From: Candidatus Pelagibacter sp. RS40
Lineage (GTDB): Bacteria > Pseudomonadota > Alphaproteobacteria > Pelagibacterales > Pelagibacteraceae
Assembly: GCF_002101295.1 (NCBI RefSeq)
Contig: NZ_CP020778.1
Span: 558,001 to 622,000 of the forward strand
DNA length: 64,000 nt
Direction: 5' to 3'
The notes under the pieces were generated by a model. That model did no database searches. It saw only the letters and a list, made by a program, of their open reading frames with translations, and was not told the origin of the DNA. The translations under genes and the position numbers were made by a program. Positions 21,648 through 25,375 of the stretch are shown here, piece by piece. How positions within the stretch are numbered: position 1 is the stretch's first letter; every line of letters starts with the position of its first letter.

Positions 21648-21722
21648 TGGAGCGGGCAATGGGACTCGAACCCACGACCTTCTCGTTGGCAACGAGACGC
21701 TCTACCACTGAGCTATGCCCGC
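21648..21722 (-). tRNA. tRNA-Gly(GCC)
   Basis: 75 bases on the minus strand with all arms visible. The acceptor pairs GCGGGCA with TGCCCGC, the D-arm is GCTC...GAGC, and the anticodon loop TTGCCAA sits on stem TCTCG/CGAGA, giving anticodon GCC. The T-arm has GTGGG TTCGAGT CCCAT, and discriminator T plus an encoded CCA ends at 21648. Its 5' half is duplicated at 22763-22803. Confidence 0.97.
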
Positions 21723-21794
21723 TTGTTAAAAAACTATTATAGTTAGCGGTTTTTAGAAATGCAAGTGTTAGTTAAATTATTAAAATTTAAAACC

Positions 21795-21816
21795 AACTGT
21801 GTCGTGAGTGTGTCGA
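21795..21816 (+). repeat. 22-bp direct repeat, copy 1
   Basis: The sequence AACTGTGTCGTGAGTGTGTC plus GA occurs exactly here and at 22682-22703. It is more GC-rich than its surroundings. Copy 1 lies 70 bases inside the left tRNA repeat end, suiting an integrase arm-type binding site; function unproved. Confidence 0.85.
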
Positions 21817-21856
21817 ATATATAGATGATAAATGAATTATTTGTTATGCTACGCGT

Positions 21857-22444
21857 ATGTTGGGTGATTTAATTCTAGACTTCTTAGATCAAAAAAAAGT
21901 TATTAAAAATTCATCTAAAGAGTTTTTGAGGCTCTTTGAATTTTTTGAAATTCATAAAAAATCGACCCCAGAAAATTTTCAAAAATATATTGATGAAAAA
22001 AACACATATATAATTTCAGAAATTTTAACTACTTTCTACTTAATTGCATACGTGTCTAAAGTTAGAAATAATAAAAAATTAATATTTAAATCTGCTTTTC
22101 AAAAAGACGAATTTTTTATGCAGGATATTTTTCTTGAAAATAAAGATATTAGAAAGGTTTTTACTACAGAATACGAAATCATGATTAACGCCTTCACAAT
22201 TAAAGGAATGGATAAGAAAGATGCTAAGTTAATTATTGATGGATTACACGCAATTTTGATACTAGATACTGAAGAAGAAAATAAAAAAAATCCTAAAGAA
22301 ACACCGTTGCCTGATTTTGCCTCTATTGCTCAATCACTCAATAGTGACTTTCGGAAAATTGAGGATTTAGAAGAAGATTCGACTGATAAAATAGACAATT
22401 TTATAAAAAAGCTAGTTAAGAAACATTATTGGGGAAAAAATTAG
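21857..22444 (+). CDS. unrecognised helical protein, cargo of mini-element
   Basis: 195 residues, unrecognised. It is mainly alpha-helical and charged, with no signal peptide or membrane segment. Notable stretches are SEILTTFYLIAYVSKV (about 51-66), GMDKKDAKLIIDGLHAILIL near 122-141, and an acidic C-terminal part (ILDTEEE, DLEEDSTDK) before a basic end. It starts at ATG within ACGCGTATGTTGG, without a clear SD. It converges with the 61-residue gene with a 4-base overlap (TTAG). It lies within the tRNA-flanked element, so it may be horizontally acquired. Confidence 0.7.
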   Translation: MLGDLILDFLDQKKVIKNSSKEFLRLFEFFEIHKKSTPENFQKYIDEKNTYIISEILTTFYLIAYVSKVRNNKKLIFKSAFQKDEFFMQDIFLENKDIRKVFTTEYEIMINAFTIKGMDKKDAKLIIDGLHAILILDTEEENKKNPKETPLPDFASIAQSLNSDFRKIEDLEEDSTDKIDNFIKKLVKKHYWGKN

Positions 22445-22626
22445 TATTTACTATTAAGCTTTTTTAATTTTTTATTTTGATAATAAATTATTCCAATAAG
22501 TATAAATACGAATAAAGGATAACCTATAATAAATATAATAATATTTATTAATTCATAAGTAGTTCCAGTAAGATCTGCTAACCAAACTAATATATCTACA
22601 CATAAGTAAAAAATATAATCAATCAT
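22441..22626 (-). CDS. small two-helix membrane protein
   Basis: 61 residues with hydrophobic segments (about 3-19 and 25-50) and a Lys/Asn-rich C-terminal tail. Segments like LTGTTYELINIIIFIIGYPLFV remind me of short membrane proteins found in many bacteria with no known function. It ends convergently on the 195-residue gene (4-base overlap). It lies inside the tRNA-bounded element. Confidence 0.6.
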   Translation of the reverse strand: MIDYIFYLCVDILVWLADLTGTTYELINIIIFIIGYPLFVFILIGIIYYQNKKLKKLNSKY

Positions 22627-22681
22627 TTAAATAACAATTTAGATGTAATAATGGTTTAAAGTTATGTTCATTTTTGTATCG

Positions 22682-22703
22682 AACTGTGTCGTGAGTGTGT
22701 CGA
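22682..22703 (+). repeat. 22-bp direct repeat, copy 2
   Basis: Exact copy of 21795-21816 in the same orientation, 59 bases before the right tRNA fragment. Flanking bases differ (TATCG before, GATC after), so the conserved unit is sharply defined. Paired placement near both element ends suggests an arm-type recombinase site or a trace of a duplicated sequence. Confidence 0.85.
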
Positions 22704-22762
22704 GATCAACTAAACGTTGAGAAAGACTATGATTACTAAAGGAAAAAGAGCTTGAATTATGG

Positions 22763-22803
22763 CGTTGGCAACGAGACGCTCTACCACTGAGCTATGCCCG
22801 CTT
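22763..22803 (-). pseudogene. partial tRNA-Gly (5' half) remnant
   Basis: 41 bases identical to 21684-21724. In tRNA orientation it runs from two bases upstream of the 5' end through the D-arm and the anticodon loop to CAACG, then diverges to CCATAATT. It cannot form a T-arm or acceptor stem, so it is non-functional. It marks the right end of the inserted segment. Past it, 22804-22867 shows only AT-rich sequence with nothing I can name. Confidence 0.92.
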
Positions 22804-22867
22804 ATAATAATTTTTAAATTAGTAGTTTTTTTTCAATTAAGCAAGTAGCAAAATTTGTGAGAAAAAA

Positions 22868-23719
22868 TTAAAGATAATGCAATTCTTGTAGGTTCTTTTT
22901 AAAAACTTCGTTAACCTTAATTTGAAAGTTTTTATCCAACTTATTTTTCCAATTATTTTCTGGCCCTAAATGAAAAAATGGTATCCTTTCATTTTTTATT
23001 TTTGAATCCAAAGCTTCGGAAAAACCTTTTGTATTTTCAATTTTTTTTAAGTTAGTAAAACTTGTGCTTGACAAAGCATTAAGGGCTTTTGTTTTTTGAA
23101 ATTCATTGTCTTTTTCGATTAAATTATCTACAAATTTTATTATTTTTTTAAATTCTTCATAAGTTTGTTTGATTAAGTCTTCATATTTAATAACTAGTGT
23201 CGGAAAAATTTTATTATTAATCCAGGTTTGGTAATTTTTTTCCCATGAACTTAAAAACTGAAAATCACTAAAATCATTTTTTTTGAAATAGTCGTAAGTG
23301 TATTTTCTTTCATTAACCATAAATTCCAAAGATTCTTCATAACTCATCTCAAAATGGTTTTTTAGAGAAGTAATAACATTTCGTGGATCTCTTATTATAT
23401 ATATCGCAGCTAAAGTATTTTTTTCGTCTGTAAATTGAGTATTACCAATTTTTCCTAAAAAATTATGAGTTTTAAAAAATCTGAGTTTTTTGTCTTTATT
23501 AATTAGCTCCTGAGCTTGAATCCAAAATTTAGCTGTATCACCAGGAACTGTCATATTATAATCAAATTTTTTGAAATGTTTTTTTTCAGGAAATTGACCA
23601 ATATTTTTTAATAAAGAATCATTAGTAAAAACTCCATCATTTGTATAATAATATGAGCTAAGAAGTGATCTTATCCATGTATTGCCACTTTTTGGGTAAG
23701 AGGCTATCCAAAGAATCAT
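22868..23719 (-). CDS. sulfotransferase-domain protein
   Basis: 283 residues. WIASYPKSGNTWIRSLL (residues 4-20) contains the PAPS 5'-phosphosulfate loop, and YIIRDPRNVITSLKNHFEMS near 107 is the 3'-phosphate site; a KYEDLIKQTYEEFKKI segment follows. It should transfer sulfate from PAPS to a glycan, lipid or small hydroxylated molecule; the acceptor is unknown. Three bases separate it from the TPR-sulfotransferase gene on the same strand, so they form an operon. Confidence 0.9.
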   Translation of the reverse strand: MILWIASYPKSGNTWIRSLLSSYYYTNDGVFTNDSLLKNIGQFPEKKHFKKFDYNMTVPGDTAKFWIQAQELINKDKKLRFFKTHNFLGKIGNTQFTDEKNTLAAIYIIRDPRNVITSLKNHFEMSYEESLEFMVNERKYTYDYFKKNDFSDFQFLSSWEKNYQTWINNKIFPTLVIKYEDLIKQTYEEFKKIIKFVDNLIEKDNEFQKTKALNALSSTSFTNLKKIENTKGFSEALDSKIKNERIPFFHLGPENNWKNKLDKNFQIKVNEVFKKNLQELHYL

Positions 23720-23722
23720 TGT

Positions 23723-25375
23723 TTAGAATTTAATATTATTATTTTTAAGTATTTCCATAACAGGAATTAAATATTTTTCATACTTTTTCCAATTTTTTGA
23801 ACTATTTTGATATACTTGGTCTCTAACTTGCAACAAAGAGTTTGTTTCAACTGCTCTATTATTCTCGTGAAATTTCAAAATTTTGTCCTCCCAATTCAAA
23901 CCTATATCTTTAATTATACTTTTAGAACCTGAAACATAATCCATTACAAAATTATCATAATCAACTTCAATTAAACTATTAGGATAGATCTCATTCCAAA
24001 ATTTCATTGTTTCATTATAAATTACATAAAATTCTCCAATAGTTTCTAATTTGTGGGCATAATCCATACCAATATTATCAAAAAAATTTGCTTTGTAATT
24101 TGACCAGCAAATCGCCATTGGATTTCTATGCATATGTATGATTTTTGCCTCAGGAATAGAGTTTAAAATAAATCCTACATAAAAGAAATTAAATGGCATT
24201 TTATCAATTATAAATTCTTTATTTGTATTAAGTTTTGAGATTTTAGATAAATATTCCTCCCTAACAAAATTTAATAGTTCTTGAGGATTTGTATTTTTAT
24301 CCCAAATAGAATTGTGTATTATTTTTGGAAGAATGGTTAGTTCGCCTGCACCATAAACCTTTGAATGTGTTGAAACAATTTGTTCTATTAGGCTAGTGCC
24401 TGATCTTGGCATACCAATAATAAAAATAGGATTTTTTTTGAAGGTATTATTAAAATCTGACTTTGGAAATTTATTGCTTAAAAAATATTGCTTTACTTTT
24501 ATAAAATGATTTTTTTCCTCAGTTATTGAATAATTATTTAATGCTGTGTAAGCTACTTTTGCTTTTTTTAGTAGTTTAAATCCAGGTTCAATTTTATCAA
24601 TATCAAAATATATTTTACTTAGGGCATAACAAAAGTTTTGTATTAATTTATTATCAAGACCTTCTATTTCTAAAAGTTCCTCTAAAACCTTTATGATACT
24701 ATCGTCCTCTTTAATTTTTCTGGTATTTACATAATGAACATAGGCCTCTGACAAAAATTTATCTTTCTCAATTGCTTTTAAAAAATAATTTTTCGCTTCC
24801 TCAAACTTTCCTTGAACAGATTTTATTTGTGCAATTAAAAAATACGATTTAGGAAATTCTCTATTAATTTCTATAACTTTTTCATAGGATGTAAGAGCTT
24901 CATCGAATTTTTTTTCATCATATAACAAATTTCCTAAATTAAAATATGCCTCGAGATTGTTTTCTTTTATTTTAATAGAATTATTATAGTTTTGAATTGC
25001 TTCATTAATTAAACCAATTTTTTTTTGTGAACTAGCTAGATTATTATATGCTTCAAAAAAATCATGTTTCAACTCAATAGCTTTTTTATAAAAAATTATT
25101 GCCTCCTCAAATTTATTTTTTAGTTTAAGAACATTTCCGTGAATATAATTTGTCTCAGCGTCATCTTTTAAAAGTAGAAGTTTTTCAGAGACAACTAAAG
25201 CTTTGTCAATATTTTTCTGGTTAATCTCACTATATATTATAATTTTATAAATCTCTTTATCATTTGCAAAAGCTTTTAAAATCGATTTTGAAATCTTTGA
25301 TATTTTGAGGTATTTTTTATCTTGAAAAAATTTTAATATTTTTTGTTTATTGAAATTTAAATTTTTTTCTCTCAT
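23723..25375 (-). CDS. TPR-repeat plus sulfotransferase protein
   Basis: 550 residues. About five tetratricopeptide repeats occupy residues 40-215 (AEAYNNLASSQKKIGLINEAIQ-like units such as AYFNLGNLLYDEKKFDEALTSYEKVIEI). The C-terminal half has a sulfotransferase fold: NPIFIIGMPRSGTSLIEQIV near 316, YGAGELTILP, and HMHRNPMAICWSNYKANFF. This tandem architecture is common in marine alphaproteobacteria; the TPRs probably bind a protein acceptor or partner. A partial TPR gene at 63284 may be a relative. Confidence 0.88.
   Translation of the reverse strand: MREKNLNFNKQKILKFFQDKKYLKISKISKSILKAFANDKEIYKIIIYSEINQKNIDKALVVSEKLLLLKDDAETNYIHGNVLKLKNKFEEAIIFYKKAIELKHDFFEAYNNLASSQKKIGLINEAIQNYNNSIKIKENNLEAYFNLGNLLYDEKKFDEALTSYEKVIEINREFPKSYFLIAQIKSVQGKFEEAKNYFLKAIEKDKFLSEAYVHYVNTRKIKEDDSIIKVLEELLEIEGLDNKLIQNFCYALSKIYFDIDKIEPGFKLLKKAKVAYTALNNYSITEEKNHFIKVKQYFLSNKFPKSDFNNTFKKNPIFIIGMPRSGTSLIEQIVSTHSKVYGAGELTILPKIIHNSIWDKNTNPQELLNFVREEYLSKISKLNTNKEFIIDKMPFNFFYVGFILNSIPEAKIIHMHRNPMAICWSNYKANFFDNIGMDYAHKLETIGEFYVIYNETMKFWNEIYPNSLIEVDYDNFVMDYVSGSKSIIKDIGLNWEDKILKFHENNRAVETNSLLQVRDQVYQNSSKNWKKYEKYLIPVMEILKNNNIKF

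Follow-up and report, generated by a model that had tools for sequence, protein, structure and literature searches.

The window (the whole 64,000-nucleotide stretch of RS40 DNA that was analysed) contains a single tRNA according to ARAGORN, a tRNA-Gly(GCC), whose 5′ half recurs 1,079 bp further along. The two copies form an exact 41-bp direct repeat (21684-21724 and 22763-22803), which extends to 48 bp at 94% identity when the edges are included, and chance is far too weak a source for such a match. The left copy is the 5′ half of the complete tRNA-Gly(GCC), with its left edge within the anticodon stem-loop, and the right copy is a half only. A 38-bp core (up to two mismatches) has two sites in the RS40 genome (one contig, 1.379 Mb), both at this locus. 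The features of the locus are as follows.

21648..21722, minus strand: intact tRNA-Gly(GCC), insertion target, with an element-supplied 5′ half (ARAGORN; genome core search)
21684..21724, no strand: left core copy (att core, tRNA 5′ half; exact 41-bp repeat)
21736..21764, minus strand: element-borne promoter-like pair TTGCAT (21759-21764), 17 bp, TATAAT (21736-21741), upstream of the restored tRNA
21795..21816, plus strand: left arm repeat with iterons at 21798-21804 and 21809-21815 (repeat search, genome search)
21857..22444, plus strand: cargo ORF of 195 aa, orphan, with a low-confidence all-helical model (ORF list, database searches, AlphaFold)
22441..22626, minus strand: cargo ORF of 61 aa, hydrophobic, membrane-like by eye (ORF list)
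22682..22703, plus strand: right arm repeat with iterons at 22685-22691 and 22696-22702 (repeat search, genome search)
22763..22803, no strand: right core, the displaced chromosomal tRNA-Gly 5′ half (exact 41-bp repeat)
22816..22844, minus strand: displaced native pair TTGCTT-17-TAATTT, ahead of the orphan half gene (pattern scan)

Neither cargo ORF matches a Pfam or NCBIfam family above the curated cut-off, and searches of both against PHROGs and PADLOC gave weak matches (best 0.007) and none, respectively. The 195-aa protein has no relative among named phage genomes, its AlphaFold model is poor (mean pLDDT 48.6), and its gene was present in only one of 299 genomes, namely RS40 itself. No integrase family matches either ORF, and the element's ORF of at least 100 aa is not among the matches of an integrase profile. 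In the entire RS40 genome, the sole match to Pfam Phage_integrase (C1:1337612-1338145, E limit 0.01) lies far from the element; the protein is nearest to XerD yet falls under the XerD family cut-off, and it scores 26.5 bits as an integron integrase against a cut-off of 265 bits. The initial annotation, made from the sequence alone, had claimed an exact 41-bp direct repeat of the tRNA-Gly 5′ half, a short segment with its own genes between the copies, and no integrase within it; all three claims held.

Empty and Occupied tRNA-Gly Sites

The same annotation had read the segment as an inserted mini-element, for which an empty tRNA-Gly site in relatives would speak and the constant presence of the segment would be a refutation. 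In the relative G116, the pterin dehydratase gene, tRNA-Gly, and sulfotransferase gene adjoin each other with one core copy and no insert, the sulfotransferase gene being 85% and the pterin dehydratase gene 93% identical to the window. The same joined arrangement, in which both flank matches lie on one contig and overlap at the core, was read from match coordinates in seven further genomes (G135, G131, G043, G094, G096, G112, and G045). Given eight relatives with an empty site, the segment is not always present, the insertion is confirmed, and the mini-element reading is supported as largely right.

The core (up to two mismatches) was found in 304 of 399 genus genomes, RS40 included, and is doubled in at least 18 of these, never with more than two copies. 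This number is a lower bound because many genomes are incomplete and the right core of G194 has diverged. Nor does a single core copy mean an empty site (G194 is occupied, and G048 stops at a contig end), and single-copy genomes were hence left out of the empty-site count. The contents of the doubled cores are of eight kinds, namely a 1.65-kb family shared by 11 genomes and seven further kinds, spanning 0.86-8.4 kb; two of the 18 encode an integrase, and the other 16 measure at most 2.3 kb. The element that had been noted as tiny and noteworthy is thus one of many and no lone case. The core spacings are listed below.

1,647 bp: G010, G047, G120, G256, G279, G284, G303, G315, G362, G388
1,689 bp: G152
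1,079 bp: window
861 bp: G172
1,098 bp: G357
2,273 bp: G291
2,329 bp: G324
6,066 bp: G180 (integrase-bearing)
8,355 bp: G124 (integrase-bearing)

Iteron Arms and Horizontal Movement

Inward of each core copy lies a nested direct repeat, AACTGTGTCGTGAGTGTGTCGA, which is absent from the initial annotation and newly found here. It comprises two TGTGTCG iterons with an 11-bp period, and its two occurrences are identical over 22 bp within a 31-nt repeat family (D2). The arm 16-mer GTGTCGTGAGTGTGTC occurs in the RS40 genome at those two arm positions only; the bare TGTGTCG motif occurs 25 times. The left arm begins 72 bp beyond the left 38-mer core, and the right arm stops 60 bp short of the right core, giving the layout core, arm, cargo, arm, core. 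Such a layout is expected once integration opens an attP site with two-sided arms, as for lambda-type integrases. The placement of the iterons resembles the arm-type sites of a tyrosine integrase; the arm role is inferred.

The 1,647-bp family and its 1,689-bp relative carry a single gene for a secreted-looking beta-propeller protein (Pfam choice-of-anchor I; 416-428 aa among the sequences displayed). In 10 of the 11 genomes their left arm is identical to that of the window, with G152 deviating by one base. For the right arm, five equal the window (G010, G047, G256, G303, and G315), another five deviate by one base (G279, G284, G362, G388, and G152), and G120 has another type, TGTGGCCG. Other contents include a pilin-like gene with TGTGTCCC-type arms (G172), two small genes with TGTGGCCG arms (G357), and a 626-aa protein (G291). 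G324 has TGTGCCG arms, no integrase match, and three genes related to those of the satellite-like viral contig L228, with identities of 61% (302 aa), 67% (76 aa), and 28% (149 aa). A flank of the right core, ACTACCTC, is common to G180, L200 (a viral contig described below), G357, and 10 of 11 members of the 1.65-kb family, and is lacking at the right core of the window element and of those in G124, G172, G291, and G324.

Between genomes, the element of the 1.65-kb family has a median identity of 96.3% (range 90.1-99.9%, 55 pairs), against 73.9% (range 67.5-91.4%) for the pterin-side flank in the 53 pairs that could be aligned (aligned lengths of 147-1,426 bp; two of the 55 pairs were unalignable). 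The element is more alike than the flank in 53 of 53 pairs, a pattern for which recombination in long shared flanks cannot account. This relative, which shares the window's left arm, has spread horizontally between SAR11 species, and because it remains 90-99.9% identical next to flanks with a median of 74%, mini-elements of this sort are mobile. The movement of the window element itself is inferred from these relatives, since its cargo was found in no other of the 299 genomes.

Related Cassettes at tRNA-Thr

The arm 16-mer is present in 26 of 399 genomes, in 13 of them at tRNA-Gly, in 11 at tRNA-Thr(TGT), and in two off both cores. At tRNA-Thr, a repeated 3′ half bounds cassettes, some of them in tandem, with pilin-like, signal-peptide, and other genes, and a tRNA-Leu lies farther along in several of these loci. 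In a sample unselected for arms, the tRNA-Thr half was found in 126 of 149 genomes, 40 of which contain at least two copies, not always close to each other. RS40 itself has a 683-bp tRNA-Thr insert (C1:1242891-1243615, L226) with one 167-aa ORF, bounded on both sides by tRNA-Thr 3′ halves. The ends of this insert showed no iteron match (12/18).

A 19-mer search in a collection with one genome per species delivered 43 stretches, 40 of them in SAR11-named records; of the other three, two look like chance. By place, 25 lie at tRNA-Gly, seven at tRNA-Thr, and 11 at neither exact core. The latter comprise two with a variant tRNA-Gly core, two that look like chance, and seven with the start of the beta-propeller cassette but no core. 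The window element belongs to a larger, little-described set of cassettes.

Several side observations were made on these loci. The seven coreless stretches (L238, L249, L255, L258, L259, L270, and L278) have a TGTGTCG arm at the cassette start without an adjoining tRNA core, and the sequence upstream of the arm is partly common to them. One stretch (L257), from the Flavobacteriales MAG MED779, combines a SAR11 tRNA-Gly core with a TGTGTCG arm and is probably a misbinned contig. The tRNA-Thr region of L202-L212 holds cassette arrays with many pilin-like genes that have a common start, FTLIELLVVVAIIGILAAVGVVAY, and also signal-peptide-like proteins that begin, for instance, with MKKLLGIVVLGLLLSGN.

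Matching of Left and Right Arms

The ends of these cassettes match more within than between elements. If the iterons are the sites of an integrase, the left and right iterons of an element are expected to match, because one enzyme would serve each element. In 28 dereplicated elements (26 near copies were removed from 54, and many loci had been picked by the arm at one end), the best 18-bp match was 15.46 for an element's own ends versus 13.63 for cross pairs. In 35 tRNA-Thr elements that were unselected for the arm, and from which no near copies were removed, the values were 15.77 and 13.50; a match of at least 16/18 was reached by 21 of 35 own pairs versus 78 of 1,190 cross pairs. In neither sample did any of 20,000 permutations attain the observed mean, although the two samples both include the tRNA-Thr site and are not wholly independent. 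The 35 elements derive from 32 of the 40 genomes with at least two tRNA-Thr halves. Left out were G000 (already covered), G084, G419, and G423 (copies far apart or on different contigs), as well as G093, G155, G309, and G336 (not among the matches used).

The motif types include TGTGTCG, TTGTCAG, TGTTACC, TGTGACG, TGTGTTC, TGTAGTC, and others. In integrase-bearing genomic elements with both ends, the arms match at 15/18 or better in six of seven cases; the integrase-bearing viral contigs L228 and L200 reach 16/18 and 13/18, respectively. In L228, GCGGACA iterons flank the tRNA-Thr core that adjoins its integrase, and the first cassette of the array in L202 has the same iteron type. Exceptions to the matching are L200, the tRNA-Thr insert of RS40, the 14 of 35 tRNA-Thr elements below 16/18, and the G120 element with its right arm of another type.

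A Promoter-Like Pair Carried for tRNA-Gly

Insertion on the 5′ side separates the tRNA from its native promoter, and a cassette at this site would thus bring a promoter copy of its own. Of 29 single-core loci, 28 have a TTGNNN-(16-18)-TANNNT pair ahead of tRNA-Gly, against 6.1% of random 62-mers from the window. Such a promoter-like pair was found in nine of nine tRNA-Gly mini-elements examined (window, G010, G047, G120, G152, G172, G291, G324, and G357); these include close relatives, so that the independent cases number about four or five. Among the integrase-bearing elements, G180 has no such pair and G124 only TTGTCC-16-TAGGGT. A general consensus promoter scan lists neither the element-borne nor the native site, and the first hexamer of the element's pair matches the consensus at 3/6 positions. 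That the pair would act as a SAR11-type tRNA-Gly promoter is inferred.

Integrase-Bearing Elements and the Inferred Helper

The initial annotation had proposed a search for an integrase with this att core elsewhere or in pelagiphages, which was positive in L200, G180, and G124 and found none in pelagiphages. G180 and G124 hold integrase-bearing elements of 6.07 and 8.36 kb at the identical tRNA-Gly site. Their integrases (317 and 316 aa, respectively) are 61% identical to each other and adjoin the right core, and each element has an arm pair of its own (TGCGTCCC in G180 and TGCATCCC in G124). The viral contig L200 (5,998 bp) is probably circular because it has a 123-bp terminal repeat. It encodes a tyrosine integrase of the same family adjoining an exact core copy, a small terminase subunit (PF03592), and an AAA_25 ATPase, and is a phage-satellite-like element. 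All three integrase genes start next to the core, at the end where mini-elements have their right arm.

In named phage genomes, all matches to the core were short; most lay in tRNA-Gly genes or unannotated sequence, and none was in a pelagiphage. The phage relatives of these integrases are distant (below 40% identity in the matches returned). Of 399 genomes, 17 hold relatives of the tRNA-Gly integrases, and some of these relatives lie at tRNA-Met or tRNA-Asn. In G010, a TGTGTCG mini-element occupies tRNA-Gly, and a further integrase of this family sits apart from it at a different tRNA-like site (C4 and C2).

The reading as first given has to be amended in that an integrase matching the TGTGTCG iterons was not found. 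With three integrases as tblastn queries, none with TGTGTCG arms was detected in the 43 stretches of the 19-mer search (at most 8 kb each). An integrase profile run on ORFs of at least 100 aa of the dereplicated elements matched G180 and G124 only; it missed the recombinase-like protein of L344.0, and other integrase types may escape it too. Moreover, tRNA-Gly mini-elements have 71-75 bp between the core and the start of the far arm, G180 and G124 have 108 bp, and the integrases of the latter two may therefore not act on the mini-elements. Among tRNA-Thr elements with an arm match of at least 15/18, the far arm lies at 52-76 bp in those below 3 kb versus 92-103 bp in those above 3.4 kb. Among the elements examined, none that bears an integrase showed a compact far arm.

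Of two attP-junction searches of viral contigs, one gave L200 alone and the other nothing, and no circular form of the window element was seen. A search of the viral contigs with a degenerate iteron pattern, TGTGTCGNNNNTGTGTCG, gave matches that were set aside. Three candidates were rejected: L201 and L227 as att-site carriers, being phage contigs with whole tRNA genes, and L005 as a helper source, its match (the only one to the exact arm 18-mer in viral contigs) being attributed to chance in GC-rich phage coding sequence.

A different, longer tyrosine-recombinase-like protein (451 aa) was spotted by eye in L344.0, a 7.7-kb element at tRNA-Thr in G039. It matched NCBIfam recombinase models below the cut-off only, its sole match as a query was itself, and no match was found in other large tRNA-Thr elements. 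The arms of L344.0, TGTAGTCAA, lie 92-98 bp from the cores, a spacing common to other large tRNA-Thr elements.

Proposed Explanation

We consider it likely (probability of about 0.74) that the segment is a non-autonomous integrative cassette that is moved by an integrase acting in trans, probably from phage satellites. Site-specific recombination of the 41-bp core on a circular form with the identical chromosomal sequence would take the cassette into the anticodon/5′ half of tRNA-Gly(GCC); the repeats and the empty site are shown. The enzyme would be a tyrosine integrase that acts in trans, or in cis if the element encoding it had settled alongside for a short time, and its most likely source a SAR11 phage satellite or temperate phage. 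The absence of an integrase from the cassette and the presence of integrase-bearing elements at the same core are shown, and the helper and the route between cells are inferred. The paired TGTGTCG iterons at each end are predicted to be the arm-type binding sites of that integrase, a role inferred for them, with the matching of arms itself shown. The cassette would thereby retain a full attP (core and two arms), with one or two cargo genes in place of the integrase, replication, and packaging genes of a satellite, and its own copy of a SAR11-type tRNA-Gly promoter, the activity of which is likewise inferred, would restore the interrupted gene. The cassette is real, probably mobile, and of a known broad kind.

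Alternative Explanations

The alternative that survives best is a cis-mobilised remnant, similar to a CIME, in which a satellite lost its own genes, kept attL and attR, and excises jointly with a neighbouring insertion. This remains possible, as tandem cassette arrays lie between tRNA-Thr half copies and G324 holds three L228-related genes with no integrase match. On the other hand, many mini-elements carry host-like cargo (pilin-like or signal-peptide genes, judged by eye) rather than decayed satellite genes, and their compact far-arm spacing is unlike that of G180 and G124, so that they are no plain deletions of those.

A dead relic, meaning a mini-element that was fixed long ago and is decaying while inherited or exchanged by homologous recombination, is unlikely. 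In its favour are the orphan cargo in one of 299 genomes and an RS40 genome without any integrase save the Xer-like protein. However, the core and both arms are intact, both ORFs are open, and the relative that shares the left arm is almost unchanged between hosts whose flanks differ by about a quarter.

Very little supports an integron-like cassette with a host integron integrase as mover. Single-gene cassettes do occur in arrays, but a tRNA half and paired iterons form the boundary and no IntI was found, the sole Phage_integrase protein scoring far below the integron cut-off. Finally, simple local duplication of the tRNA end, named at the outset as a possible source of the right copy, could by itself produce a 41-bp repeat but is ruled out, since the arm repeats are nested within it, other genomes have unrelated cargo at this position, and the empty site exists.

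Relation to Known Systems

Among known systems, tRNA-bounded cassettes of additive flexible genomic islands have been described in Actinomarinales (PMC7771536) and Methylophilaceae (PMC10872708). Like these, the window element is a small insert of few genes in a streamlined aquatic bacterium, with a direct repeat of a partial tRNA at both ends, and it meets the criterion that the site is empty in some relatives. Unlike the present analysis, the relevant sections of those accounts do not include arms, end matching, promoter carriage, or an integrase partner at the same core, and the window element differs from the cassettes in duplicating the 5′ half at tRNA-Gly. CIMEs of the ICE and IME families lack their own genes for integration and transfer, keep attL and attR, and undergo tandem accretion (PMC5704250). 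The window element meets this criterion with its two orphan ORFs only and retained attL/attR (assigned by anatomy and homology), but differs in its phage-satellite-like partners, its size of about 1 kb, and a cargo that is not recognisable as decayed element genes.

PICIs and similar phage satellites carry integrase, replication, and packaging-type genes. The window element has the tRNA core and general arm layout of L200 and G180 but no such gene, and thus differs from PICIs in gene content. Tycheposons (Hackl et al. 2023) are cargo-bearing elements that sit at tRNA genes and measure 4-200 kb, those of Methylophilaceae having a tyrosine recombinase (PMC10872708). The window element likewise brings cargo to a tRNA gene in a marine bacterium, but with 1,079 bp and no recombinase it does not qualify.

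In SAR11, the hypervariable region HVR4 contains pilin genes with tRNA genes on its flanks and no attC sites were found in it (PMC2217521), and tyrosine recombinases and tRNA genes lie alongside a phn operon in Pelagibacterales (PMC12416821). These cases resemble the present one in linking gene gain in SAR11 to tRNA genes. The tRNA-Thr arrays offer a mechanism for such cases, although their identity with HVR4 is not established. The published SAR11 O-chain islands concern a different region. The literature searched, from which subscription papers were mostly missing, yielded no account of matched iteron arms in SAR11 or of SAR11 cassettes that bring a promoter. Cassettes bounded by tRNA repeats were already known; what looks new is the arm and promoter anatomy. 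Foremost among the new points are the matching of the arms, the promoter brought along by the cassette, and the almost unchanged spread of a relative that shares the left arm.

Significance

SAR11 bacteria are among the most abundant in the ocean and have streamlined genomes. Their prophages have been described as rare (PMC7771536), and integron signatures were not found in their hypervariable islands (PMC2217521). If a minimal cassette, its ends made up of about 250 bp of att sequence, is mobile between species and restores its target tRNA, it would provide a testable route for single-gene exchange. The matched iterons predict a pairing of integrase and cassette, and the anatomy makes the mechanism testable.

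A bolder reading, to which we give slightly less than even odds, is that SAR11 practises an integron-free exchange of cassettes, in which many cassettes of one or a few genes bear a matched iteron "address" at both ends, the addresses are read by different satellite or phage integrases, several separate pools share tRNA sites, and tRNA-Gly cassettes bring a promoter for an apparently single-copy tRNA gene. If true, this would explain the variation of the pilin/signal-peptide island between tRNA-Thr and tRNA-Leu.

As a minor observation, the insertion site in the window adjoins a sulfotransferase-domain gene (22868-25375), and in relatives sulfotransferase-like pieces are also found across the tRNA; the region is therefore variable beyond the cassette.
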